Below are positions 46,386 through 64,000 of a stretch of 64,000 nt of DNA, one piece after another. The notes beneath the pieces are model-generated. The model worked only from the letters and a program-made list of their open reading frames with translations, searched no databases and had not been told where the DNA came from. The DNA is from Asticcacaulis taihuensis. Its GTDB lineage: Bacteria > Pseudomonadota > Alphaproteobacteria > Caulobacterales > Caulobacteraceae. Position 1 is the stretch's first letter. Every line of letters begins with the position of its first letter. The stretch is from NCBI RefSeq assembly GCF_900100255.1, contig NZ_FMTS01000001.1, positions 372,001 through 436,000 of the forward strand, read 5' to 3'. Position numbers and translations under genes: made by a program.

Positions 46386-47075
46386 CTAGGGCTTCAAGCG
46401 GTAGCCTATCCCTGGCTCAGTGACGATGAAGCGGGGATTTAACGCATCGTCTTTCAGCTTTTCGCGCAGGTGCTGGGTATGAATGCGCAGATAGGTCTGA
46501 TTGTCAGTGCTATGCTTACCCCAGACTTCATTCAGAAGTGCGCCATGAGTCAGCACCTTACCGGAATTGCGCGCCAGGACCGCCAGCAATTTATATTCGA
46601 TTGGCGTCAGGTGTACATCCTCCCCGTCCAGTTGTATGCGCCGAGCAGCCGTGTCTATTCTGAGATTATCATGATCATAAACGAAAGGTGCATCACCCTG
46701 GGGCTGGTTCCGCTTGCGAAGGGCCACCTTGATGCGCGCGATCAACTCGGCAGCGGAAAAGGGCTTGGTCAGATAGTCGTCGGCCCCCAGTTCTAGCGCT
46801 TCCACCTTGTCCGCCTCCTGGCCGCGCGCGGACAGCACGATAATCGGCGTTCGCCCCCATTCCCTGATCTGCCGGATGATCTCCATGCCATCCATGTCAG
46901 GCAATCCCAAATCGAGAAGGATAACGTCAGGTATTTGTGACACCACCTTTTGCAAGCCAGCCTTGCCTGTCTCGGCCTCAAGCACCATCATGCCGTTGGC
47001 GCCAAGGGTCGTGCGCAAAAATTTGCGGATGTCGCTTTCGTCTTCAATTGAGAGGATGCGGGGAGAGTCGGCCAT
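46386..47075 (-). CDS. kdpE: response regulator KdpE
   Basis: 229 aa, OmpR/PhoB family. The receiver has IEDESDIRKF, acceptor D55 (VILLDLGLPDMDG) and lysine in DDYLTKPFSAAEL. The C-terminal winged helix includes HLTPIEYKLLAVLARNSGKV and DNQTYLRIHTQHLREKL. With KdpD it activates the kdp promoter at low potassium. It lies 97 bp after kdpD rather than overlapping it, as is more usual; the gap is filled by two inverted repeats (47081-47124 and 47135-47180). Candidate target boxes are at 54647-54931. Confidence 0.95.
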   Translation of the reverse strand: MADSPRILSIEDESDIRKFLRTTLGANGMMVLEAETGKAGLQKVVSQIPDVILLDLGLPDMDGMEIIRQIREWGRTPIIVLSARGQEADKVEALELGADDYLTKPFSAAELIARIKVALRKRNQPQGDAPFVYDHDNLRIDTAARRIQLDGEDVHLTPIEYKLLAVLARNSGKVLTHGALLNEVWGKHSTDNQTYLRIHTQHLREKLKDDALNPRFIVTEPGIGYRLKP

Positions 47076-47134: not shown

Positions 47135-47180
47135 AGATATAGAGTGTCAATCTAATTCAATCAGATGCCACTCTATATCT
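47135..47180. repeat. 12-bp inverted repeat at the kdpD stop
   Basis: AGATATAGAGTG (47135-47146) and CACTCTATATCT (47169-47180) pair perfectly around a 22-base loop. The right arm overlaps the end of kdpD (stop at 47173-47175). It may be a weak terminator or processing site between kdpD and kdpE. Confidence 0.8.
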
Positions 47181-49908
47181 CTTGGGAAGTTAGGAAGGAC
47201 GTAGCGATTGGGAGGGTAAAGATGAAGCTGGCGCCAGTGCCTGACCGCATACCATCGGACGAGGCAAGCATGCGGTTGTTCTTCGCATAGATCATGCCGC
47301 CATGCGCCTGCACGATACCGCGGCAGATGGCCAGTCCCAGACCTGTGCCGCCGGAGCGATCCGACCGTAATTCCTGCCCTTTCTGGAACTGCTCGAAGAT
47401 GCGCGCCTCGTCGCCGTCCTTGAGTCCTGTGCCATTGTCGGAGATACGAACCCGCAGGCGGTCAGCGTCCTTTTCGACATAGATGACCACCTCGCCATCA
47501 TCATCCGTATGCTGGAAGGCATTCTCGATCAGGTTTATGAAGACCTGCTCGATCAGCCCGCCATCGATCATCACCATCGGCAGGTTGCCTGATATCTGCG
47601 TCCGCAGGGTTCGGCCGCCCTTGGTCGCTTCCACCCGTCCAAGCGCGGCCCCAATGATTTCCTGGATCATATAAGGTTGAAAATTCAGTTTCATATGACC
47701 GGAGGTAATCGCCGCCATGTCCAGAAGATTACCGACGAATTTTTGCAGGCGGGTCAGTTGCCCCCATAAGGATGTCAGTTCATCCATTGCCTTTCGCGGC
47801 AGCTCCTTGCGCATCCGCAGAAGCGTGCTCACCGAACCATTCATGACGGTAAGCGGCGTGCGCAGGTCATGCGACAGCGATGACAGCAGCACGTTGCGCA
47901 GTTTTTCATTCTCCGATTCGACCTTCGATTCCGCCGCCTCGTCCGACCGCCGTGCGCGTTGCAGGGCTCCGGCGATCAGGCTGGCAAAAGCCTCGAATTG
48001 CAATATCTCGGCGCCGGTGAACGGATGACCGTTGTCGCGTGCGGTCAGGCCGAGTACGCCCAGGGTTTCCTTTTCGGCCAGCAGCGGCAGGTACAGGCCG
48101 TTGGCCGATGGCATGGTGTCGGTATCGCGGCCCGCCATCTGGCCGTTGGCGACCACCCAATTGATTGCTCCCGTTTCACGCATGTCCGGCGTAGTCACGC
48201 CTTCCGGATAAGCCTTCAGCCCCTCCGGCGTTTTTACAAACAGGGTCACATCGAGACTGAAAGGTTCGCTGATATGCCGGGTGGCCACTTCGCAAATCAT
48301 GTCGACGCTGCGCTCGGCTGATAGGCTCCGCGTTAGGCCATAGAGAATCTGGGTCTCGCGCTCGCGGTTGCTGACGAGCCGCGCGTGACGCGACAGACGC
48401 GCGGTCAGCGAACCCACCACCAAGGATGTCACAAGCATGAAGGCGAAGGTGACGTAATAGTAGGTGTCGTAGAAGTTGAAAGTATAATAGGGATCGGTGA
48501 AGAAAAAATTGAATGCCGGAACGCTCAGGATCGAGGCCAGGACCGACGGCCCCAGCCCCAGCCGTGCCGCCACGATGACCACGCCGGTGAGATAGATCAT
48601 GGCCAGATTATTCGAAGGCGTATGGTCGCGGAAGACGAACCCGATCGCCGTGCACAGGGCGACCATGGCCGTGGCAAGCAGGTAGTCCAGCGGCCGGGCC
48701 AGATAAGGCCGGATCACCGCGGCCGCCGTGACGGGCTCACGTGTCTGACCAGTGGCGCCATGTACGACTGTGATCTCGATACCGTCGCTTTGCTCGATAA
48801 GGGCCTGCGCGAAGGTTGCGCGAAACGGCTTTAGCCACAGGGGCGGTCGGCGATACCCGACCACGATGCGCGTAAAGCCGTTTTGCTGTGCATAGGCCAG
48901 GATATCCTGCGCCGGTCGCGCGCCGGAAAGCCGCACAATCTGCGCACCGAGACTTTCCGCCAGACGCAGATATTGCTCGACGCGGGTGCGGTCCTTCTCA
49001 TCAAGCTGCTCATGCCGGTCGCTTTGCAGATAGACGGCAAACCAGGGCGCCCGTCCCCGCACGGACATGCGTTTGGCGTGGCGGATCAGGCGGGTGGAGA
49101 GCGGGTCAGGCCCGATCAGCAGCATGATCTTCTGACCAAGCTGAGCTTCGTTCTGTCCCATGGCAGCGTTGAGTTCGTCGCTCTGGGCGTCAACGCGCTC
49201 GGCCGTGCGGCGCAGGGCCATTTCGCGCAAGGCCAGCAGATTGCTTTTTTTGAAAAAGTTTTCGGCGGCGCGCTTGTTCGCACCTTCGGCGACGTAGACC
49301 TTACCCTCGGCCAGTCGCTTCAGAAGGTCGTCCGACGGAATATCAACGAGCGCGATTTCGTCCGCTGCCTCGAAAATGGTGTCCGGCACCGTTTCCTTGA
49401 CCCAGACGCCCGTCAGGCGCGCCACCTGGTCGTTGACGCTTTCCAGATGCTGCACATTCAGCGTGGCGTAAACATCTATGCCGTTATCGAGCAGTTCCTC
49501 GACATCCTGCCAGCGCTTGGGGTGGCGCGATCCCGGCGCATTGCTGTGCGCGAATTCGTCCATCAGGATCAGCGACGGTTTGCGTGCCAGGGCGCCGTCC
49601 AGATCGAACTCGCGGACAATGACGCCGCGATGTTCGATCTCCAGTAATGGCAAAACCGGCAGCCCTTCTACAAGGGCTGCCGTTTCTGTACGACCATGGT
49701 GTTCGACGACACCAACCAGCACATCCCGCCCCTCGGCCTGGCGCCGGCGCGCCTCACCGAGCATGGCGTAGGTTTTGCCGACCCCCGCGGACGAACCGAA
49801 GAATACCTTCAGATGGCCGCGCGGGGATCCGCTGGTCTCATTCTCAACCAGTTTCAGCAGCTTGTCCGGATCAGGTCTCCCCGCGGGGCGACGATTGTCA
49901 GGTTTCAC
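47173..49908 (-). CDS. kdpD: sensor histidine kinase KdpD
   Basis: 911 aa with full KdpD architecture. The N-terminal cytoplasmic domain has Walker [10 protein letters not shown] (38-46) and Walker [12 protein letters not shown], then a USP-like domain ([20 protein letters not shown]). About four membrane helices lie at residues 405-500. A GAF-like region follows, then HisKA with H680 ([12 protein letters not shown]) and an HATPase domain ([18 protein letters not shown]). It senses potassium limitation or turgor and phosphorylates KdpE. The start overlaps the kdpC stop by 4 bp (ATGA), so it is part of the kdp operon. Confidence 0.96.
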
Positions 49909-50492
49909 TTCAACTTTCCGTCGAGCCTGAGATTGACTTCCAGGACGTTGACACGCGGTTCGCCCAGTACGCCAAGATCGCGCTGGCGGGTGGATTTGGC
50001 AATGGCTGATTTGACAACCGCCGCGCCAATACCTCGCGCCTGGGCGATTCGTCCCACCTGATAATCCGCCGCAGCCGGGCTGATTTCCGGATCGAGACCC
50101 GATCCGGAAGCGGTGACGAGATCGACCGGGATGGGTCTGGCGTTCAGAGGATCAGCCTTTTGCAAAGCCTCGATCCGCCCCTTGACGGCGTCCATCAGCG
50201 CCGGATTATTGGCGCCAAGGTTGGAACCGGAAGAGGCGCCGCCATTATAGGGCGCGGTGCCGGTGGCGGACAGCCGGCCCCACAGGTACTGCGGCTGATC
50301 GAAATTCTGGCCGATCAGGCGCGAACCGATGACCTTGCCATCAGAATCCCTGATCAGGCTGCCCTGCGCCTGGGCCTTGAAGCCCAGTTGCAGAATGCCC
50401 GTGGTCACCATGGGATAGACGCCGCCCAGAAGAACCGTTAGCAGGACGGTTGTGCCGATAGCCGGACGCAGGGTTGAGAGAAGAGATTTCAT
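49905..50492 (-). CDS. kdpC: potassium-transporting ATPase subunit KdpC
   Basis: 195 aa from the ATG at 50492, preceded by AAGGAG; a GTG two codons upstream is possible. One N-terminal TM ([20 protein letters not shown]) leads to a periplasmic domain with [40 protein letters not shown] and the C-terminal [14 protein letters not shown]. KdpC stabilises the KdpFABC complex. It overlaps kdpD by 4 bp. A shorter, diverged KdpC-like protein is encoded at 56311-56871. Confidence 0.96.
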
Positions 50493-50565
50493 TTTCACAC
50501 TCCTTAAGCCAGTCCGCCGCGCTCAAGCAGCGCAGCGGTAGCGCATCTAAAAATACGTGGAATTG

Positions 50566-52659
50566 CTACGCTAATCCCACGGCCGCGAGGGCCATGTCGA
50601 TCAGCTTGATGCCAATGAAGGGCGCGATAATGCCCCCGAGCCCATAGACGAACATATTGCGCGACAGCATCTTCGCCGCCGGTTCGGCCCGGTACTTGAC
50701 GCCTTTCAACGCCAGCGGGATCAGCGCAATGATAACCAGCGCATTGAAGATGACCGCAGCCAGGATGGCGCTTTGCGGCGATTTCAGCCCCATCACATTC
50801 AGCGCCCCAAGCACCGGATAGGTGGTAGCAAAGGCCGCCGGGATGATGGCGAAATACTTGGCCAGATCGTTGGCGATCGAGAAGGTCGTCAGCGATCCGC
50901 GCGTCATCAGGAGTTGCTTGCCGATCTCGACGACCTCGATCAGCTTGGTCGGATCGCTGTCGAGATCGACCATGTTGCCGGCTTCCTTCGCGGCCTGGGT
51001 GCCGGAATTCATGGCCACGGCCACGTCGGACTGGGCCAGGGCCGGGGCGTCGTTGGTGCCGTCACCCACCATGGCGACTAACTCGCCGCCTTCCTGCATC
51101 TGGCGGATGTATTTCAGCTTGGTCTCAGGTGTCGCCTGGGCGAGGAAGTCATCGACGCCGGCTTCCGAGGCGATGGCCGCGGCGGTCAGCGGGTTGTCGC
51201 CGGTGATCATGATGGACTTGATGCCCATCTTGCGCAGGTCAGCGAGGCGCGCCTTGATATCCGGCTTGACGATGTCTTTCAGGTAGACCACGCCCAGTAC
51301 CTGGCTGTTCTCGGCCACGGTCAGCGGCGTGCCGCCCTGGCGCGCAATATCCTCGATCTGGACGGTCACTTCAGCCGGCACCGATCCCCCCTTTTGCGCG
51401 ACGATCCTGGCGATGGCGTCGCCCGCGCCTTTCAGGATATGGCGTTCGTTGATGATGATGCCCGATACCCGTTGCTCAGCGCTGAAGGGAATGAAGTCCG
51501 CCTTCAGGTCTTTCACGTCCCGTTCCGGCAGGCCGAACAGCTTGCGGGCCAGCACGACGATCGACCGGCCTTCCGGCGTCTCGTCGGCCAGAGACGACAG
51601 TTCGGAAGCCTCGGCTAGTTGCTGCTGGGTGATGCCCGGTGCCGGGAAGAATTCGACCGCCTGACGGTTGCCGAAGGTGATGGTGCCGGTCTTGTCGAGC
51701 AGCAGGACATTGACGTCGCCGGCGGCTTCGACTGCACGGCCGGAGGTGGCGATGACATTGGCCTTGATCAGGCGCTGCATCCCCGAAATGCCGATGGCGG
51801 AGAGCAACCCGCCGATTGTGGTCGGGATCAGACAGACCAGAAGCGCGATCAGTACCGTGATGGTGATAACCGAGCCGGCGCCGGCACGCTCGACGCTGAA
51901 CAGCGAGTAAGGCAGCAGGGTAGCGCAGACCAGCAGGAAGATGATGGTCAGCGCCGCCAGCAGAATCGACAGGGCGATTTCGTTGGGGGTCTTCTGGCGC
52001 TTGGCCGATTCCACTAACGAGATCATGCGGTCAAGGAAGCTTTCGCCCGGATCGGAGGTGACGCGCACCACGATCCAGTCGGAGAGGACGCGCGTGCCGC
52101 CGGTAACGGCATCGCGGTCGCCGCCGGATTCGCGGATGACAGGCGCCGATTCACCGGTCACGGCGCTTTCGTCAACCGAGGCGATGCCTTCGAGAACCTG
52201 ACCATCGGCGGGGACAAAATCACCGGCTTCGACGACGATGATGTCGCCCTTGCGCAGGGAATTGGCCGGAACACTGAGGTGCTTTGTGCGATCCGTGACC
52301 TTGTTCAGCTTCTTGGCCGAGACATCACGACGCGACTTCTTCAGGCTGTCGGCCTGAGCCTTGCCCTTGCCTTCGGCGATGGCCTCGGCAAAGTTGGCAA
52401 ACAGCAGGGTGAACCACAGCCAGAAGGTGATCAGGCCAACGAACCACAGCGGCTGGCCGCCGCCGATGATGGCGTCCGGCCTGACCAGCATAACGCCGAA
52501 GATGCCGGTGGTGATGATCGAGCCGACGAACACCAGAAACATGACCGGGTTGCGCGCCTGGTAGAGCGGGTTGAGACGGAGGATGGAGTTCCTGAAGACG
52601 GCCCCCATATCCGCCCCCTCGAAAAGTCCACCCTTTTGGGATTTGGACGTAACGGACAT
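50566..52659 (-). CDS. kdpB: potassium-transporting ATPase ATP-binding subunit KdpB
   Basis: 697 aa, P-type ATPase of the KdpB class. Phosphorylated D322 is in [12 protein letters not shown]. The actuator motif reads AVTGESAPV, the hinge region [12 protein letters not shown], and the N-domain KGAGDAI. It hydrolyses ATP to drive potassium through KdpA. kdpA ends 4 bp upstream; kdpC starts 73 bp downstream. It is the only KdpB in the window, although two KdpA-type genes exist. Confidence 0.97.
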
Positions 52660-52663
52660 GGAC

Positions 52664-54397
52664 TTAGCCCTTGATCATGTTGAAGTGTTCGACGACCGGG
52701 CCGAGCGCCAGCGTAGGCACATAGGTCAGGACGGTGACGATGACGATGACGCCGACCAGGGTCGCTATGAAAAGCACATTGTGCGTCGGCAGCGTGCCGG
52801 CAGATTCAGGCACCGTTTTCTTTGCCGCGAGGGCGCCGGCGAGCGCTAGAGTCGGAATGATGATCCAGAAGCGTGAAAACAGCATGCAGATGCCGAGCAG
52901 CGAATTGTAGAACGGGGTATTGGCTGACAGGCCGGCAAAGGCCGAACCGTTGTTGTTGCCGGCCGAGGTCACGGCATAGAGGACTTCGGAAAAGCCGTGT
53001 GCCCCAGGATTGTAGATTCCCGCCTGCCCGTCCTTGGTCATTACGGCGATGGCCGTGCCGATCAGGACCAGTATGCCCGGAACCAGCATGGCGATTGAGG
53101 CCATTTTGATCTCGAAGCTCTGGATCTTTTTGCCGAGGTATTCCGGTGTGCGGCCGACCATCAGGCCGGCAATGAAGACGGTGAGGATAACCATGACCAG
53201 CATGCCGTAGAGACCCGAGCCGACGCCGCCATAGATGATTTCGCCGAACTTCATCAGCAACAGCGGAACCATGCCGCCAAGGGGGGTATAACTGTCATGC
53301 ATGGAGTTCACGCTGCCATTGGAGGCCGCTGTTGTCGCCGAGGCCCACAGTGCGGAGTTGGTGATGCCGAAACGTGTTTCCTTGCCTTCCATATTGCCGC
53401 CGGGCTGAAGGTGGCTTGCCATCTGATCGATATGCAGCGCGGCGAAGTTCGGATTGCCGCCTTGTTCCATGGCGACGCAGAAAATAAGGAGCGGCACGAA
53501 AATGATTGTCATGGCCGCCAGTATCGACCAGCCCTGACGCTTGTCCTTGACCATGACGCCGAAGGTGTAACACAAGGCCGCCGGGATCAGCAGGATCGAC
53601 AGGACTTCAATGAAGTTGGCCAGGGGCGTCGGGTTTTCCAGCGGATGCGCCGAATTGACATTGAAGAAGCCGCCGCCATTGGTGCCGAGTTGTTTAATAG
53701 CCACCTGGGAAGCCGCCGGACCGACGGCAATCGTTTGATCGATGCCCTGAAGCGTATGTGCTGTCACATAGGCATCAAAGGTCTGCACGACGCCCTGTGA
53801 ACCGAGCAGGATCGCAACGATCAACGCCAGAGGCAGAAGGACATAGATGTTGGCGCGGACCATATCGACCCAGAAATTGCCTATGCCCGTTGATTCCTTG
53901 CGCGACAGGCCGCGGATCAATGCCACCAGCACGGCGAGACCGACGGCGGGCGAGATGAAGTTCTGCACGGTCAGGCCGACCATCTGGCTAAAATAACTCA
54001 TGGTGGTTTCACCACCGTAGGCTTGCCAGTTGGTGTTGGTGACGAAACTCGCTGCCGTATTAAACGACAGGTCAGGCGTCAGGCCGGGCAGCTTCTGCGG
54101 ATTAAACGGCAGCAGGTTCTGAAAGACGAGGATGAAGTAAAGCACGATGAAGGCGATTGCCGAAAACACCATCGTGGCAATAGCGTAGTCCTTCCAGCTC
54201 ATGTCATCCTTATCAGGATCGACGCCGCAAATGGTATAGGTGAGTTTTTCGAGCCAGCCGAGTACCGGCGACATGAAGGTCTTTTCGCCCTGGAAGACCC
54301 TGGCCATGTAGCCACCGAGCGGCACTACGCACGCCAGAAGCACCGCCATATAGAGGGCAAGCTGCAGCCAGCCATTGCCCGTGATAAATTGGGACAT
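52664..54397 (-). CDS. kdpA: potassium-transporting ATPase potassium-binding subunit KdpA
   Basis: 577 aa with ten membrane helices and all four filter segments: SFVTNTNWQ (117-125), GTNGGGFFN (238-246), [10 protein letters not shown] (355-364) and [12 protein letters not shown] (478-489). This is a normal potassium-selective KdpA. It follows kdpF by 12 bp and precedes kdpB by 4 bp in a conventional operon. It is the reference for judging the degenerate KdpA-like protein at 55010-56314. Confidence 0.97.
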
Positions 54398-54409: not shown

Positions 54410-54502
54410 TTAGGGAAAGATTTCGGGTTTGATCAGGGCTACCAGAAGGTAGCCAAGCAGGCCGAGGACAAGTATCCCGGCACCGATATAGAGCGCAGTC
54501 AT
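54410..54502 (-). CDS. kdpF: KdpF small subunit
   Basis: 30 aa: MTALYIGAGILVLGLLGYLL and then VALIKPEIFP. A single membrane helix and the LIKPE-x-F end are the KdpF signature. KdpF is a lipid-like stabiliser of the KdpFABC complex. The start overlaps the stop of the preceding 31-aa ORF (ATGA), and kdpA follows 12 bp later. Confidence 0.92.
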   Translation of the reverse strand: MTALYIGAGILVLGLLGYLLVALIKPEIFP

Positions 54503-54594
54503 TGGCCGCTCTCCCGCAGGCGCTCGCACAGCCCAATGAAAAGGGCGGAAACGACGAAGAACGCCACCCCGCCCGCGAAATAGATGAAAGTCAT
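54499..54594 (-). CDS. 31-aa single-helix membrane peptide upstream of kdpF
   Basis: MTFIYFAGGVAFFVVSALFI followed by GLCERLRESGQ: one hydrophobic helix and a charged tail. It overlaps kdpF by 4 bp and is the first gene of the kdp operon, with GGAGG 10 bp upstream. Comparable tiny membrane ORFs ending in a C-(D/E)-R-L-type tail occur before kdpF in other alphaproteobacteria (from memory). Probably an accessory of the Kdp complex. Confidence 0.75.
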   Translation of the reverse strand: MTFIYFAGGVAFFVVSALFIGLCERLRESGQ

Positions 54595-54646: not shown

Positions 54647-54770
54647 ATATAGGTAGTGTATAAAGTGGGGCTGGCCACATATAGATTTCGTATAGAAAGT
54701 GGCACTGTACAGCCAGGCTCAAACATATAGAGAGTAGACGTAACGCCTGCCAAATATAGGGGATGTATTG
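54647..54770 (-). promoter_or_regulatory. array of four KdpE-like boxes upstream of the kdp operon
   Basis: On the minus strand the half-site pair (N)TATAC-N5-CTATAT recurs at 54647-54663, 54679-54695, 54725-54741 (weak) and 54754-54770. Half-sites are 11 bp apart, the spacing of the direct repeat in the E. coli KdpE operator (TTTATAC...TTTACAC). They lie 50-180 bp upstream of the first kdp gene. The copies are best explained as a multi-site KdpE operator. Confidence 0.65.
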
Positions 54771-55009: not shown

Positions 55010-56314
55010 ATGGTACCGATACACGTTCGCGCAGACTATCTGCATCTGGCTATAAACCTGGGCATACTTGTCTTATGTGTCGCGCCGCTCGGCGGTTACC
55101 TGAGCCGGGTTTTCCGTGGAGAACCGACCATCCTTGCGCCCCTCATGTCGTGGTTTGAAACCCGGCTTTACGATTGCGCAGGGGTGGACGCCCGAGCGGA
55201 AATGTCATGGAGAACCTATGCCTTGTCCGCTGTCCTGTTTTCAGGGCTCGGTTTCGTTGCCCTTTACCTGCTCCTGATCTTCCAGGCAGCGCTGCCAGGC
55301 GCGGGCCAGGCGGCGCAAGGCTTCTCGCCTGGCCTTGCTTTCAATACCTCCGCCGGCTTCGTGACCGATGCCGGCCAGCCTTTACAGTCTGATGCCGGCG
55401 CGCTTAGTCCCTTGAGCCAGATGGCCGGGCTGACGGTTCAGAACTTCCTGTCCGCCGCCGTCAGCCTGTCGGTGTTCATTGCCGTAACCCGCGGCATCGC
55501 GCGCACCACACCGGGAAGGATAGGCAACTTCTGGGTCGATGTGGTACGGTCCCTGCTCTACGTCCTGCTGCCGCTATCCCTTGCCTATGCCCTGCTCCTC
55601 GCCACGGCCGGCGTCGGGGATGCCATAGAGGCATACGCTGTTAAAAACCTGCTTCATCCCTCTGCGACGGCCGGCGATTTTCAGACCATAGCGACCCTGG
55701 AGACTCTGAAATTGACAGTCACCAGCGAAGGCAGCTTTATCAATGCGAATAATGCCCATCTTACGAATGTTTCGACGCCGCTCGCCCAACTTCTCGACTG
55801 GCTTTCCCGCTGGCTCCTTCCCTCCGCCCTATGCTGGACGTTCGGAAATATGACAGGCGCGAAGCGCCACACCTATCTTCTGATGGCAGGCGCGGCCAGC
55901 TTGCTTGCCATATCTGCGGCGGCATCCGGCTGGCTTGAGACCGCGCCGCCTATCAGCCTGTTCGGTCTCATGGACGGCAACGGAATCGTCCTTTACTGCC
56001 TGATCGCTACCCTTATCGCCACAGTCGTCATTCGCAAGGGGCTGTTCGGCCAGTCGGCAAGTTTTCTCGACCATCGCCTCAGCCTGTTCGACATTACTAT
56101 GGCAGCAACGGCATTGCTTGTCCCCACCATTATAGTAACCGGCCTGTTGATGATCAGGGATTTGAACATACAGGCCGGGCCGCTTCCCTCTCTTGCCGAT
56201 CCGATCGGAGGGCTTGGCACACTCATCAGCCGCTTCTGGATCATGATCCCTGCCCTCGCCATCGCGGGGTCTTTTGCAACCGCGACCGCGCCGTTTTCCA
56301 AAGGCGTAAAATGA
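55010..56314 (+). CDS. degenerate KdpA-like membrane protein lacking filter motifs
   Basis: 434 aa from the ATG at 55010, which aligns with the normal KdpA start; a TTG at 54953 is in frame. The skeleton of KdpA is preserved: APLGGYLSRVFRGE, FNTSAGFVT, GLTVQNFLSAAV, RIGNFWVDVVRS and LISRFWIMIPALAIAGS. The four selectivity-filter segments are not: TNTNWQ has become TDAGQP (119-124), GTNGGGFFN has become TSEGSFINA (238-246), and the third and fourth are deleted, making it 143 residues shorter. It cannot be a normal potassium channel subunit. It overlaps the kdpC-like gene (ATGA), and no kdpB follows. Confidence 0.85.
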   Translation: MVPIHVRADYLHLAINLGILVLCVAPLGGYLSRVFRGEPTILAPLMSWFETRLYDCAGVDARAEMSWRTYALSAVLFSGLGFVALYLLLIFQAALPGAGQAAQGFSPGLAFNTSAGFVTDAGQPLQSDAGALSPLSQMAGLTVQNFLSAAVSLSVFIAVTRGIARTTPGRIGNFWVDVVRSLLYVLLPLSLAYALLLATAGVGDAIEAYAVKNLLHPSATAGDFQTIATLETLKLTVTSEGSFINANNAHLTNVSTPLAQLLDWLSRWLLPSALCWTFGNMTGAKRHTYLLMAGAASLLAISAAASGWLETAPPISLFGLMDGNGIVLYCLIATLIATVVIRKGLFGQSASFLDHRLSLFDITMAATALLVPTIIVTGLLMIRDLNIQAGPLPSLADPIGGLGTLISRFWIMIPALAIAGSFATATAPFSKGVK

Positions 56315-56871
56315 CCTCGACCCTATCGCAATTTCGCGCCCCCCTTGTGCTTCTCACGGCCTCGGCACTGCTGCTGGGTGTGGCCTATCCCCTTTTCGTG
56401 AAAGCCTTGATAGGAAACGCCTGGAATGCCCAGGTGAGCGACACGGCCATACGAGACCGGTCAGGCCGTGTCCTGGCCTCCGCGCTCGATCCCGCCCCCA
56501 CAAATGCACCCCGTTACTTCTGGGGGCAGGTTATCGATGCCACCGCCCCTGACTGCTACCTGGATCGACAAACCTATTCTCCAGATTGCCAGAATGCGCT
56601 GAAATTCCGAAGGGTACTTCTAGGAACCGACTCTGATACACCAGTACCGGAAGACCTGATCACGTTTGGCATCCCCGGACAAATGCCGAGGATCAGCCCC
56701 GAGGCAGCGGCGTTTCAGATCCACCGGGTGGCTTTGGCGCGCGGCGTCAGCGACGCGAAAGTCTCGTCGCTCGTTCAGGCGTCCACGCATAACCCCACCT
56801 ACACGCTAGGCAGCGGACTTTATGTAAACGTCCTTGAACTCAACCTGCGTCTGGACGGAAAATTGAAATGA
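56311..56871 (+). CDS. KdpC-like protein (orphan, without KdpB)
   Basis: 186 aa. One N-terminal helix (VLLTASALLLGVAYPLFV) and a periplasmic domain as in KdpC: RYFWGQVIDATAPDC, PRISPEAAAFQIHRVALARG and the C-terminal [15 protein letters not shown], nearly identical to the canonical end. The usual [10 protein letters not shown] loop is altered to ITFGIPGQMP, and extra cysteines are present (DCYLDRQTYSPDCQ). It is translationally coupled to the KdpA-like protein, so the two probably form a complex. A Kup permease starts 53 bp later. Confidence 0.85.
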   Translation: MTSTLSQFRAPLVLLTASALLLGVAYPLFVKALIGNAWNAQVSDTAIRDRSGRVLASALDPAPTNAPRYFWGQVIDATAPDCYLDRQTYSPDCQNALKFRRVLLGTDSDTPVPEDLITFGIPGQMPRISPEAAAFQIHRVALARGVSDAKVSSLVQASTHNPTYTLGSGLYVNVLELNLRLDGKLK

Positions 56872-56923: not shown

Positions 56924-58924
56924 ATGACCCATGCCCCCTCTTCGTCCGAAGCCGGATCCGCATCCCAAACGCCAGCCAGCGACGCCCTTCAAGTGCCCTC
57001 CCCTGAGCCAGATGCTGTAAAAGCATCCAACGAAGCAGAGGCTATCGAAAGTCACGGCCACGGCCACACCGGCTTCTGGGGGCTGGCGATCGGCGCGATC
57101 GGCGTCGTGTTCGGCGACATCGGCACCAGCCCGCTTTATGCCATGAGGGAGGCCCTCCACCACACAAGAGCCGGCACCAATCCGCAACTGGCCACCTTCG
57201 GTGTAATCTCGCTTGTATTCTGGGCGTTGCTCCTGCTTGTGACGGTTAAATACGTCATCTTCCTGATGCGAGCGGACAACAAGGGCGAAGGCGGTACGCT
57301 GGCGCTCATGGCGCTGGCGCAGAAAGCCCTGGGGCGCCATTCGCAGGCCGTCTTCTTCCTTGGCATGTGCGGGGCCGCCCTGTTCTATGGGGACAGCCTG
57401 ATCACGCCGGCCCTGTCGGTCATGAGTGCGATCGAAGGACTGAAAGACGCGCCTGGAGTCGGGCACAGCGTCGATGGCTATATTGTGCCGATTTCGATCG
57501 TCATTCTGGTTGCTCTGTTCCTGGTTCAGTCAAAAGGCACTGCCAAGGTGGCGCGGTTCTTCGGCCCCGTCATGCTTGCCTGGTTCATCGTGATTGCCGG
57601 CATGGGCGTCTATTATGTGGCGCAGAAGCCGATGATCCTGCAATCTCTGAGCCCGGTTTACGGCATTCAGTTCCTGCTGGCCAACGGACTTACCGGTTTC
57701 ATTATCCTGGGCAGCGTCTTCCTGGTCGTTACTGGAGCAGAAGCCTTGTACGCTGATATGGGCCACTTCGGGAAAAGGCCCATCAACATGGCCTGGCTTT
57801 GGGTCGTTTTTCCCTGCCTGATCCTGAACTATCTTGGTCAGGGCGCCCTGACCCTCGTTGATCCGACGGCGCATGAGAACCCGTTCTGGCGCATGGTGCC
57901 GGACATGTTCTACTGGCCGGTCATGCTCCTCGCCACCATGGCGACTGTGATCGCCTCCCAGGCCGTTATCACCGGGGCCTATTCGATGACACAACAGGCC
58001 GTTCAGCTTGGCCTGATGCCGAGAATTGATATACAACGAACATCGGAAACACAGGCCGGTCAGATTTTCGTGCCGCAGATCAACACCATGCTAATGATCG
58101 GCGTGCTGGTGCTGATCGTCATGTTCCAAAGCTCAGACAAACTCACCTCCGCCTACGGCATCGCCGTTACGGGGACAATGTTCATCAGCACGATCATGGC
58201 CTATATCGTCATCCGCAAGGTCTGGCTGTGGCCGAAGGTGCGCACGCTTGCCCTGCTCATTCCCCTTGGCATTATTGAAGCCATCTTCATGGCGTCAAAC
58301 CTGACGAAGTTCTTTTCCGGCGCCTGGATGCCTCTTGCATTCGGCCTGGTCCTGATCTTGATCATGCACACGTGGACGAAAGGCACTCGCACCCTGACTG
58401 AAAAGGCCCGGCGCGACAGCGTATCCTTGCTCGACTTGGCCGACATGCTCAAAAAGCGGCCGCCGCACCGTGTTGCCGGCACCGCCATTTTCCTGACGTC
58501 AGACGCCGAATTGGCCCCCGTGGCCCTCATGCACAACCTCAAGCACAACAAGGTTCTGCACGAAAAGAATATCATCCTGACGGTAAAGACCACCAATACA
58601 CCTCGGGTCGATGAGGCGAACCGCATTACGATCGATATTCTGAACGAAGATTTCAAACGGATCACGGTGGCCTACGGCTTCATGGAAAGCCCCAACCTGC
58701 CGCGCGCGCTCGGTCTGTGCCGAAAGCTCGGCCTGAAATTCGATATCATGTCCACCAGCTTCTTCCTGGGCAAGCGCAATGTCGTGCCGTCAGCCAATTC
58801 CGGGATGCCAATCTGGCAGGACAAGCTGTTTATCTTCCTCATGAAAAACGCCACCAATCCGACCGAGTTCTTCCATATCCCGCCGGGCCGTGTTGTTGAA
58901 CTTGGGACGCAGGTTACTGTTTAA
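56924..58924 (+). CDS. kup: Kup-family low-affinity potassium uptake permease
   Basis: 666 aa. After a hydrophilic N-terminus of about 48 residues (His-rich ESHGHGHTGF) come 12 membrane helices and a soluble C-terminal domain. Family signatures are IGVVFGDIGTSPLYA, VTKYV-type VTVKYVIFLMRADNKGEGGT, LFYGDSLITPALSVMSAIEG and SQAVITGAYSMTQQAVQLG. Kup imports potassium with protons. It lies 53 bp after the kdpC-like gene on the same strand, so the three may be one unit. Confidence 0.95.
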   Translation: MTHAPSSSEAGSASQTPASDALQVPSPEPDAVKASNEAEAIESHGHGHTGFWGLAIGAIGVVFGDIGTSPLYAMREALHHTRAGTNPQLATFGVISLVFWALLLLVTVKYVIFLMRADNKGEGGTLALMALAQKALGRHSQAVFFLGMCGAALFYGDSLITPALSVMSAIEGLKDAPGVGHSVDGYIVPISIVILVALFLVQSKGTAKVARFFGPVMLAWFIVIAGMGVYYVAQKPMILQSLSPVYGIQFLLANGLTGFIILGSVFLVVTGAEALYADMGHFGKRPINMAWLWVVFPCLILNYLGQGALTLVDPTAHENPFWRMVPDMFYWPVMLLATMATVIASQAVITGAYSMTQQAVQLGLMPRIDIQRTSETQAGQIFVPQINTMLMIGVLVLIVMFQSSDKLTSAYGIAVTGTMFISTIMAYIVIRKVWLWPKVRTLALLIPLGIIEAIFMASNLTKFFSGAWMPLAFGLVLILIMHTWTKGTRTLTEKARRDSVSLLDLADMLKKRPPHRVAGTAIFLTSDAELAPVALMHNLKHNKVLHEKNIILTVKTTNTPRVDEANRITIDILNEDFKRITVAYGFMESPNLPRALGLCRKLGLKFDIMSTSFFLGKRNVVPSANSGMPIWQDKLFIFLMKNATNPTEFFHIPPGRVVELGTQVTV

Positions 58925-60173: not shown

Positions 60174-61406
60174 ATGCGAATCCTATTCTGTGCGGCCTTA
60201 TCGGTCGCTCTCGCCGCGCCGCTCGCGCGTGCCGAACCGCTCACCTTTGATGCGGCGCTAACACTGGCGCAAAAGTCCGCGCCGAGTCTCGCGGCCAAGT
60301 CGGCGGATGTCGACGCCGCCCGTTCATCGGCTGTTTCCGCCGGACGGCTGCCCGATCCCAAGCTGCGATTTGGTATCGAGAACTTTCCCATCTCCGGCCC
60401 CCCCGCGGGATCGTTCAGCCGCGAAAGCATGACCATGACAACCGTTGGGGTCACGCAGGACGTCCCGAATGCCATTAAACGGCGAGCGGAACGTAGTCGG
60501 GCGGATGCGGATATCAATGCCGCCCGAGCCAGCCAGACTGTCGAATACCGCTCCGTTCAGGTCAATACGGCCGTCGCGTGGGTTAATCTTTATTATGCCA
60601 AGGCGAAGCTCGCGGCGCTCGACGATGTCGCCGTCACGATTTCATCGAACCAGAAAACGGCAACCTCTCAACTGACCAGTGGCGGCCTTCGCCCGTCTCA
60701 GACACTGGCGGCGGATCAACTCATGGCCGCTTTGGGTGACCGTCGTGCCGACCTGACGGCTGAAGTCGCCAGAGCGCGCGCTGAACTTGTGCGTTGGACC
60801 GGCGATGAGACGGCGGATACCGCCGGCACGCCTCCCGATTTCGAGGTCAACCCATCGGCGCTTCAGGCCGAATTGGACCGGAACCCCATGCTTGGCGTAT
60901 ATTCTGCCGTGGCTGATCAGGCCGATGCGGACGTGAACCTTGCCAGGGCAAATAAGTATCCGGACTGGGGTTGGGATGTGACCTACGCGCACCGCGACCA
61001 TATGTGGGGCGATATGGTTTCAACCGGCGTCACGATCAGCCTGCCCCTTTTCTCGAAGAACCGGCAAGATCCCGCTATCCAGGCGCGGCAGGAACAGGTC
61101 ACCAAGGCCCGCCTGGACCAAGAGGCGGTCCATCGTCAGTTGCAGGCTCAACTCGATGCCGACTTGGCGGATCACATCATGCACCATGACCGGCTCAATC
61201 GAGCGCGCGCCACGCTCGTGCCTCTGGCGCAGAAACGGGCAGATCTTGAAGTCGCCAGTTACGGCGCGGGAACCGCCATGCTGTCCGATGTTCTGGATGC
61301 CCAACTGGCCCTGGCCGAGGCCCGTGTCGACTTGTTGTCTCGCGAAGCGGATGTTGCTGTCGATGCCGTTCGGATTACCCTGACCTACGGGAGCGATACG
61401 CAATGA
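60174..61406 (+). CDS. outer-membrane factor of a heavy-metal RND efflux system (CusC/CzcC type)
   Basis: 410 aa. A signal peptide (ILFCAALSVALAAPLARA) is followed by TolC-type repeats: LTFDAALTLAQKSAPSLAAK, the SREMT-like GIENFPISG, ISLPLFSKNRQDPAIQAR and YGAGTAMLSDVLDAQLALAE. It forms the trimeric exit channel. It lacks the lipobox of E. coli CusC. It overlaps the adaptor gene by 4 bp (ATGA). Confidence 0.9.
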   Translation: MRILFCAALSVALAAPLARAEPLTFDAALTLAQKSAPSLAAKSADVDAARSSAVSAGRLPDPKLRFGIENFPISGPPAGSFSRESMTMTTVGVTQDVPNAIKRRAERSRADADINAARASQTVEYRSVQVNTAVAWVNLYYAKAKLAALDDVAVTISSNQKTATSQLTSGGLRPSQTLAADQLMAALGDRRADLTAEVARARAELVRWTGDETADTAGTPPDFEVNPSALQAELDRNPMLGVYSAVADQADADVNLARANKYPDWGWDVTYAHRDHMWGDMVSTGVTISLPLFSKNRQDPAIQARQEQVTKARLDQEAVHRQLQAQLDADLADHIMHHDRLNRARATLVPLAQKRADLEVASYGAGTAMLSDVLDAQLALAEARVDLLSREADVAVDAVRITLTYGSDTQ

Positions 61407-62893
61407 CCCTCTTGAACTTGTCTCCCCGTCTGCGTCTGGGTGTGTCGGCCGCGCTCATTGCCCTCGTGGCTGGCGCCGCTGGCTTTGGTCTCGCCAAGCT
61501 GCAAGGGCCGGGAAAGTCCCCCGTCACGCCCGCCACCGCGGGCAAGGGCAAGGTGCTTTACTGGTATGATCCGATGAAGCCGGACCAGCATTTCGACAAG
61601 CCGGGCAAATCGCCCTTTATGGATATGCAGCTCGTCCCGCGATACGCTGATGAGGCCGGGAACGCGCTGGCCGGGATTACCATCGACCCCACACAACAGC
61701 AAAATCTGGGCGTGCGCCTGGCTACCGTCGAACGAGGCGAATTCGCCGACAGCGTCGCCGCCGCTGGCTCGCTCGATTTCAATCAACGGAATGTCGCGAT
61801 TGTCCAGGCGCGGGCGAATGGCTTCGTGCAACGCGTCTATGCCCGAGCCCCCGGCGACATTGTCGCGGCCGGCGCCCCGATTGCCGACATCCTCGTCCCC
61901 TCGTGGGGAGGCGCGCAATCCGAATATCTGGCGGTCAGGCAGACCCATGACCCGGCGCTTGAGGCCGCGGCCCGGCAGAGGCTGGTGCTGCTCGGCATGC
62001 CGACCGGCCTGATCGACAGCGTTGGCCGTTCGGGCCATATCAGCAACGTCGTTACCATCACCACACCGGTCGGCGGGGCGATACAGACCCTCGATGTTCG
62101 CCAAGGCATGACCGTCAGTCAGGGACAGACCTTGGCCCAGGTGACGGGTCTGTCGACAGTCTGGCTTACAGCGTCTGTGCCTGAGGTCCAGGCCGGCCGC
62201 ATAAGACTGAACCAGGCTGTGACGGCTGAGTTGGCGGCCTTTCCGGGTGAAACCTTCAGCGGCAGTGTCGCCGCCATTCTGCCGACAGCCCAGGCTGATA
62301 GCCGGACGCTCAACGTGCGTGTCGAACTGCCCAATACGGGCGGCAGACTGCGTCCCGGCATGTTTGCCACGGTTCATCTCAGCGGAGATACTGGTCAGGC
62401 CCTCTTCGTCCCGTCCGAATCCCTAATCCGTACCGGCAAACGCACCTTGGTGATGCTCGCTGCGGGCAAAGGCCGGTTTACACCGGTTGAGGTCCAGACC
62501 GGCCGCGAAAGCGGTGACCGCACCGAAATCCTCGCCGGCCTCAATGAGGGCGACACGGTCGTAGCCTCCGGGCAATTCCTGATCGACTCGGAAGCGAGCC
62601 TGGCCGGTATCAATGCCCGTCCCTTGACCTCTGCCCCACCGGCAGCGCCCGCCTCACCCCAAACGCTTTATCGGACCGACGGGGTGATTGAGCAGCTGAA
62701 GGGCGAGTCGATTACCCTGAGCCATGGCCCTGTCCCCGCCATCGGTTGGCCGGCCATGACGATGACGTTCAAACTGTCATCGGCCACGCTCGCGAAGGGC
62801 ATGAAGACAGGTGATCATGTGACATTCGGCTTTGTCCAAAAGCCCGATGGCCCGGTCATCGAACAGATCCGGCCGATGGGGGCGGTGCGATGA
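61403..62893 (+). CDS. periplasmic adaptor of a metal RND pump with fused CusF-like domain (CusB type)
   Basis: 496 aa. After an N-terminal membrane anchor comes a heavy-metal-binding segment [20 protein letters not shown] (residues about 53-72, with MDMQLVP next). The barrel-hairpin core contains GIDP-like [32 protein letters not shown] and [11 protein letters not shown]. The last 80 residues ([20 protein letters not shown], then [11 protein letters not shown]) are a CusF-type copper/silver chaperone domain fused to the adaptor. It is coupled on both sides by ATGA overlaps. Confidence 0.92.
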
Positions 62894-64000
62894 TCGCTGC
62901 CCTCATCCGCTGGTCCGTCACAAATCGCTTCTTCGTCATCCTGGCGACGATCGCCGTTATCGCCGGCGGCATATTCGCCATCAAGGCGACAGCCGTGGAC
63001 GCCTTGCCCGATCTCTCCGACGTGCAGGTCGTCATCCGCACCTCCTATGCTGGCCAGGCGCCTCAGATCGTCGAGAACCAAGTTACCTACCCGCTCGCCA
63101 CAACCATGCTGTCTGTGCCGGGGGCCAAAACGGTGCGCGGCTATTCCTTCTTCGGCGACAGCTTCGTCTATGTGCTATTCGAGGACGGCACCGACCTCTA
63201 CTGGGCGCGCTCGCGCGTCCTGGAATATCTCAATCAGGTACAGGGGCGCCTGCCGGCCGGCGCCAAGCCGTCCTTGGGTCCGGACGCAACCGGCGTGGGC
63301 TGGGTCTATGAATATGCGCTGATCGACAAGACCGGTCAGCACGACCTATCGCAATTGCGCGCCTTGCAGGACTGGTTCCTGCGCTACGAACTGAAGTCCC
63401 TGCCAGGCGTGGCCGAAGTCGCCAGCATCGGCGGCATGGTCAAGCAGTATCAGGTCGTGCTCGATCCGGTGAATCTCGCCGCCTATGGTGTCACCCACCA
63501 GAACGTGGTCTCCGCCATCCAGAACGCCAATGGCGAAAGCGGCGGCTCCGTGCTGGAACTGGCCGAAGCCGAATACATGGTCCGGGCGGGCGGCTACCTG
63601 AAGACGCTCGATGACTTCCGGGCCATCCCGTTGAAGACCGTGGCCGGCGGCGTCCCCGTCACTTTGGGTCAAGTCGCCACCATCCAGATCGGACCTGAGA
63701 TGCGCCGGGGCATCGCGGAACTGAACGGCCAGGGCGAGGTTGCCGGCGGCGTGGTCATCCTGCGTTCCGGCAAGAACGCCATGGAAACTATTTCCGCCGT
63801 CAAAGCCAAGCTGACTGAGCTGAAGAAAAGCCTGCCGCCGGGCGTCGAGGTCGTCACCACCTATGACCGGTCGCAACTGATCGACCGCGCCATCGGCAAC
63901 CTGCGCGAAAAGCTGATCGAGGAATTCCTGGTCGTTGCTATCGTCTGCGGCCTGTTCCTGTGGCATGTCCGCTCGGCGCTGGTCGCCATCCTCACCCTGC
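62890..64000 (+). CDS. RND heavy-metal efflux pump CusA/CzcA type (cut by window edge)
   Basis: The first 370 codons are present and the frame is open to the window end. It starts [20 protein letters not shown] and continues with the typical first helix, [45 protein letters not shown] and AVG-type [14 protein letters not shown]. The end reaches the second helix region [20 protein letters not shown]. It is the inner-membrane pump of the tripartite system. The start overlaps the adaptor stop by 4 bp. Metal specificity (copper/silver versus cobalt/zinc/cadmium) leans to Cu/Ag from the CusF domain in the partner. Confidence 0.94.

Follow-up and report, generated by a model that had tools for sequence, protein, structure and literature searches.

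What can a KdpA-KdpC pair still do once its potassium filter has been erased and no KdpB follows it? The question is raised by two adjacent genes in the window, by which we mean the whole stretch of 64,000 nucleotides of Asticcacaulis taihuensis DNA that was analysed. A sequence-only reading had described them as an orphan pair without KdpB. The word orphan does not fit: a complete kdpF-A-B-C-D-E operon, its genes named from their best NCBIfam matches, runs divergently from kdpA2-kdpC2-kup2 across a common intergenic region of 612 bp. The absence of KdpB holds for the pair's own operon, in which kup2 is the next gene after kdpC2 in all four loci found, but not for the locus, since the divergent operon that shares this intergenic region encodes KdpB about 2.3 kb from the pair. 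The features of the locus are listed here.

55010..56314, plus strand: kdpA2, KdpA paralogue of 434 aa with filters 1 and 2 rewritten and P-loops 3 and 4 and the last helix deleted
56311..56871, plus strand: kdpC2, KdpC paralogue of 186 aa with the periplasmic loop replaced, carrying Cys82 and Cys93
56924..58924, plus strand: kup2, Kup-family K+ transporter, third gene of the operon and one of two Kups in the genome
54916..54931, plus strand: predicted KdpE-type operator TATACACTTTCTATAC upstream of kdpA2, exact TATAC-N6-TATAC
54647..54662, minus strand: predicted KdpE-type operator facing kdpF, one mismatch
54679..54694, minus strand: second predicted KdpE-type operator facing kdpF, one mismatch, 32 bp from the first
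54499..54594, minus strand: 31-codon open reading frame before kdpF, with one hydrophobic stretch and a 4-base overlap with kdpF
54410..54502, minus strand: kdpF, 30 aa, above the TIGR02115 cut-off
52664..54397, minus strand: ordinary kdpA, all four filters present
50566..52659, minus strand: kdpB, above the TIGR01497 cut-off
49905..50498, minus strand: ordinary kdpC
47173..49908, minus strand: kdpD, sensor kinase whose top-scoring family is KdpD (784.6 bits, under the model cut-off of 1123)
46386..47075, minus strand: kdpE, response regulator whose top-scoring family is KdpE (259.6 bits, under the model cut-off of 325)

The match of the window's KdpD spans its full length, as does that of the KdpD of G024, a genome without the pair. 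The 31-codon frame has no match in NCBIfam and is possibly another small Kdp membrane peptide. A sigma-70 scan gave three promoter-like sites against 2.6 in shuffles, and a terminator scan gave seven against 4.5. Downstream, at 60174-63999 on the plus strand, lies a CusCBA-like metal efflux set made up of an outer-membrane efflux protein, a CusB-like fusion protein with a CusF domain and an RND pump that is cut by the window end.

KdpA2 had been read as a 434-residue KdpA homologue with its first two filters changed and its third and fourth missing, and alignment with KdpA confirms this. The protein passes the Pfam KdpA gathering score (243.9 versus 22.6 bits), although the match is limited to residues 17-312, or profile positions 4-299 of 548, and it fails the NCBI equivalog model TIGR00680 (203.6 bits against a cut-off of 387.7). 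In E. coli numbering, counted by hand from the alignment at this and the other KdpA2 positions named below, N112-T113-N114-W115-Q116 of filter 1 has become D-A-G-Q-P; GTNGGGFFN of filter 2 has become VTSEGSFIN; and the segments bearing filters 3 and 4, together with the last helix, are absent. Our reference set combined the window's ordinary KdpA with 40 others out of 70 listed; across these 41 sequences, 206 columns are at least 90% conserved. KdpA2 keeps 78 of these columns (77 after realignment with the other KdpA2s), and the loss is unevenly spread. Within segment bounds that we set by the KdpA topology, numbered as in this genome's KdpA, filter segments 1 to 4 retain 7/19, 9/28, 0/25 and 2/19 conserved columns, TM10 retains 1/19 and helix D3M2 only 4/24; the well-kept segments are the cytoplasmic loop with D1M1 (9/9), D1M2 (14/16), D2M1 (12/13) and D4M2 (6/8). 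Misalignment as a hiding place for the filters was rejected, because the motifs were still missing when KdpA2 was aligned and then realigned with the 41 ordinary KdpAs, the realignment leaving one conserved column in filter 3, none in filter 4 and one in TM10. The other three KdpA2 orthologues keep at most 6/19, 9/28, 3/25 and 2/19 columns in the four filters. Of the 206 columns, 21 are conserved throughout the four KdpA2s, including R162, G173, N174, W176, D178 and R181 (numbered as in the ordinary KdpA of the window), and the motif R-GN-W-D--R at the D1M2/D2M1 junction is conserved in every one.

The structural model of KdpA2 (mean pLDDT 73.7, pTM 0.80) contains nine helices of transmembrane length, pore helix P1 and a low-confidence P2, and it has no P3, P4 or TM10, falling short of the ten transmembrane helices in M1-P-M2 repeats that mark a KdpA. 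Foldseek nevertheless superposes it on KdpA with TM scores of 0.71-0.74 and an rmsd of 5.9-6.5 Å, and the model of KdpC2 matches KdpC with TM scores of 0.66-0.67; the alignments fed to the structure predictor for both proteins were mostly ordinary KdpA or KdpC. Since the four filters are gone while the cytoplasmic-side D1-D2 scaffold is best kept, KdpA2 would be unable to select or conduct K+ as KdpA does.

The proposed coupling of kdpA2 to a KdpC homologue with an altered loop is likewise borne out: both frames are intact and overlap by 4 bases, and KdpC2 reads ITFGIPGQMP where ordinary KdpC has its SSGSNLG loop. KdpC2 resembles KdpC (PF02669) in its single transmembrane helix, in the conserved C-terminal P, Q, R and NLRLD positions and in its fold, and it passes the Pfam gathering score (88.5 versus 24.1 bits), but it has lost the GSNLG of SSGSNLG, has gained a pair of cysteines and fails the KdpC equivalog cut-offs (at best 90.4 versus 178 bits). 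Each of the four KdpC2s carries two cysteines and no more, one within residues 81-82 and one within 89-93, at the position of the ordinary SSGSNLG loop. None of the 39 ordinary KdpCs in the alignment has a cysteine beyond residue 45; among 73 ordinary KdpC frames, taken as the KdpC-like frames in the loci of the best 80 of 588 relatives, 71 have none beyond that residue, two (L106 and L112) have one and none has two. The two periplasmic cysteines of KdpC2 may form a disulfide. A class-wide search with KdpC2 returned KdpC-like matches of at most 37% identity over most of the length and up to 46% over shorter stretches.

Whether filter loss and the A-C-Kup order are conserved had been left as a check, and both recur in four of 25 genus genomes: the window's own (G000), G017, G015 and G021. 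In all four loci kdpA2-kdpC2-kup2 stands divergent from kdpABCD, with kdpE read only in the window and kup2 of G015 running off a contig end. A frameshift or assembly error in 55010-56314, which would have undercut the sequence-only reading, is excluded because the same order and the same losses recur in three other genomes. The overlap of the KdpA2 and KdpC2 frames measures 4 bases in the window's genome, 4 in G021 and 10 in G017. G021 also has a 4-base overlap of KdpC2 with Kup2; in the window, 52 bases separate kdpC2 from kup2. A search for KdpA detected it in 21 of the 25 genomes, and 17 of these 21 show no KdpA2. Samples of the order (398 genomes, only five of them of the genus), the class (385) and the phylum (398, of which 136 have KdpA) yielded no further KdpA recognisable as short and intact. 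Partial matches were set aside as lying at contig ends (G079 twice, G886, G961, G969, G687 and G939), as one gene in two frames (G505 and G878) or as a piece of 45 residues interrupted by an in-frame stop (G1087). For 19 regions, namely those of the 17 pair-less genus genomes with KdpA, the other kdp locus of G017 and that of G042 from another family, the roughly 6 kb upstream of kdpA were searched by BLAST (E 1e-4), and apart from kdpA itself neither A2 nor C2 nor Kup was detected. Among the best 80 of 588 relatives in named genomes, a set that may omit the window genome and those near it, none exceeded 42% identity to KdpA2. A plasmid-borne family was rejected: 458 plasmid records match KdpA2, all below 60% identity and none covering 80%. 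G017 carries two kdp operons (L023 and L135/L137), one with kdpA2-kdpC2-kup2 and the other with a GntP-family permease at the pair's place. The kdpF-kdpA2 intergenic region of G015 (L024:7380-7537) contains inverted repeats nested within one another, with 28-nt arms that are 89% complementary and arms of 16 nt outside them; they may represent a hairpin or a small mobile element.

As paralogues of KdpA and KdpC, KdpA2 and KdpC2 are old. The other three KdpA2s are 33-58% identical to the window's copy, and the four make up one side of a branch (98/99) on which the tool warned of long branches and composition; the result is consistent with a single origin but does not prove one. In G017, the kdpA next to the pair clusters with the kdpA of the pair-less genome G022 (100/99), so movement or recombination may have affected kdp and the pair independently. 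Between the window's genome and G017, pN/pS is 0.277/0.674 for KdpA2, 0.248/0.734 for KdpC2, 0.116/0.525 for KdpA and 0.071/0.670 for Kup2. Maximum-likelihood omega, from two codon models on three- or four-species sets, is 0.058-0.144 for KdpA2 and 0.044-0.073 for KdpC2, similar to the working KdpA (0.070-0.102) and KdpC (0.040-0.085) and far below 1, values that are rough because synonymous change is near saturation. Kup2 is under far stronger constraint than the pair (omega 0.009-0.025, three species). The omega values of KdpA2 and KdpC2 are at odds with unconstrained drift.

According to an excerpt of PMC3264566, the binding site of E. coli KdpE consists of two 6-bp half-sites, TTTATA and TTTACA, with 5 bp between them. 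The TATAC-N6-TATAC of the window has the same 11-bp period with CTATAC-like half-sites, and the kdpA2 operon is preceded by a 6-bp direct repeat with 5-bp spacing, as in the KdpE regulon. With at most one mismatch the pattern occurs three times in the window, always in the kdpF-kdpA2 intergenic region, a number reached in 0 of 100 shuffles. In the whole 3.97-Mb genome there is a single exact copy, lying 78 bases before kdpA2; the reversed-pattern control gave two in the same genome, so rarity alone says little and the argument rests on conservation. Each of the four genomes has between one and three exact copies ahead of kdpA2, with 76-89 bp between the closest one and the start. Among 19 other kdp promoters, a site is found at 14 when up to one mismatch is tolerated and at all 19 when up to two are, the latter figure carrying little meaning; the chance rates, 0.13 and 0.53 per kb respectively, are overestimates because the background holds real sites.

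Kup2 also occurs without the pair, in G024, G022, G003 and a second locus of G017. All four of these copies have an exact site within 350 bp upstream, a feature that none of 23 other Kups shows. Within the genus Kup2 thus has the appearance of a KdpE target; in Sinorhizobium fredii KdpE did not bind the kup promoter, according to the portion of PMC9239096 consulted. kup2 passes the kup model TIGR00794 (548.9 versus 539.6 bits) and differs from other members of the Kup family (PF02705) by its KdpE-type operator and, in four species, by the two Kdp-derived genes ahead of it, this filterless pair separating kup2 from the operator there. The linked Kup2s require two label changes in the Kup tree and form a single group in 0% of 200 bootstrap trees, with the unlinked Kup2 of G024 nested among them (94/93). 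The linkage has thus been lost, moved or gained more than once, and because pair-less copies exist, one of them nested among linked ones, the pair would be a modifier of Kup2 rather than a requirement. In G003 (L174:1953-6308, G003:C8), where no KdpA was found, Kup2 adjoins a KdpE-like regulator and a 475-aa KdpD-like kinase without the N-terminal sensor half, with an exact operator upstream of kup2; this genome appears to have KdpDE without a Kdp pump. Tandem kup genes lie at L169:5680-9747, L170:6250-10318 and L171:5171-9234, one copy in G022 and one in G019 being split by a frame change; in all three loci a KdpE-type site is present at the second copy and absent at the first.

Because the pair is intact in four species, always behind the low-K+ switch and before the same type of importer, it has probably taken on a new role, as a helper or a regulator. 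The order A2-C2-Kup2 makes Kup2 the first candidate partner. Among the roles that the sequence-only reading had offered, accessory of the neighbouring Kup is favoured by this order in all four loci and by the KdpE-type promoter ahead of it. We envisage that KdpDE would induce kdpA2-kdpC2-kup2 along with kdpFABC at low potassium, presumably through KdpE binding, that KdpA2 and KdpC2 would form a non-conducting membrane module, and that this module would dock on Kup2 and tune or stabilise it when K+ is scarce, a dead paralogue thus serving as a regulator. That the module is mainly an accessory or regulator of the co-expressed Kup2 is a reading we hold tentatively, a little short of an even chance. 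Against it stand the pair-less Kup2s, for which the pair is evidently not strictly needed, the many KdpA-bearing genus genomes without KdpA2, the scattering of linked Kup2s in the Kup tree, the shrinkage of KdpA2 in G021 to 320 aa with 34 of the 206 conserved columns left, and omega estimates that are rough at saturation and far lower for Kup2 itself. A bolder version, in which the dead KdpA-KdpC subcomplex is a dedicated, redox-capped regulatory subunit of Kup and KdpDE builds both a pump and a Kup with parts borrowed from the pump, strikes us as somewhat unlikely.

The pair could instead act on the Kdp pump, damping or stabilising KdpFABC through mixed complexes with KdpA, KdpC, KdpF or KdpB, which may form via the D1-D2 half of KdpA2 that is well kept in the window's genome and G017. 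The divergent genes share an operator type in all four loci, and KdpA2 lies beside kdpABCD in each genome that has it. However, kdpA2-kdpC2 are co-directional with kup2 and not with kdp, and the regions facing KdpB are the worst kept: Arg400 of helix D3M2, which contacts the KdpB P domain in the part of PMC6255902 consulted, reads as Gln in the window's KdpA2 and is deleted in G021, and Glu370 is deleted (compare the excerpts of PMC6255902 and PMC12629597), although Arg400 is still Arg in G017 and G015. Arg493, which sits in the vestibule according to the excerpt of PMC12629597, is retained by three of the four KdpA2s and replaced by His in that of G021. The earlier suggestion of a decoy for KdpB is weakened, since the surfaces known to contact KdpB are least kept. 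We consider action on the pump unlikely. We attach a distinctly low probability to a K+ or redox sensor in which the cysteine domain of KdpC2 and the scaffold of KdpA2 report the outside to KdpD or Kup2. The cysteine pair peculiar to KdpC2 speaks for it, as does the precedent of NF038185, a 'KdpD-like non-kinase potassium sensor' by its model name and likewise a Kdp component without its active module, though related to the KdpD sensor half, unlike KdpA2 and KdpC2; but the filter, which is the ion-binding site of KdpA, is gone, and the KdpD match spans the whole protein both here and in the pair-less G024. It is similarly improbable that the pair has lost its function and is read through as a translated leader delivering ribosomes to kup2. 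The 4-base overlaps, the continued shrinkage of KdpA2 (434, 426, 368 and 320 aa across the four genomes) and the relatives with Kup2 alone would suit such a leader; constraint on the amino acids equal to that of working subunits, polar residues kept in every KdpA2, a new cysteine pair and the gap between kdpC2 and kup2 in the window would not. An ordinary decaying duplicate or a sequencing or assembly artefact is scarcely credible: divergence is fast, but four genomes share intact frames, order and deletions, with omega far below 1. The sequence-only reading's judgement that this is not simple decay holds, given four intact orthologues, omega like that of working subunits and the cysteine pair gained by KdpC2.

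The component families are known. KdpA2 shares with KdpA (PF03814; E. coli KdpA, PDB 5mrw/6hra) its homology, its model fold and the helical skeleton of four repeats, and differs in lacking a working filter, P-loops 3 and 4, TM10 and an operon KdpB and in failing the equivalog cut-off. Catalytically dead membrane paralogues kept as regulators are familiar from the iRhoms, which belong to a eukaryotic proteolysis pathway and have no homology to the pair. As far as our searches reach, the combination and the filter loss are undescribed: in the open-access literature, with subscription journals mostly outside, the matches listed show no description of a KdpA-KdpC pair of this kind, those listed for Asticcacaulis and potassium look off topic, and a search for KdpA paralogues and truncated or second KdpAs found nothing.

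The role of KdpC in the pump is still called unknown in the excerpt of PMC9651954. A KdpA-KdpC pair kept without a filter and without an operon KdpB is a natural dissection of KdpA-KdpC function, and its remaining function is unlikely to depend on K+ selection. A role of the pair in regulating Kup2 would show the parts of a pump becoming regulatory subunits, and a Kup under the control of KdpDE.
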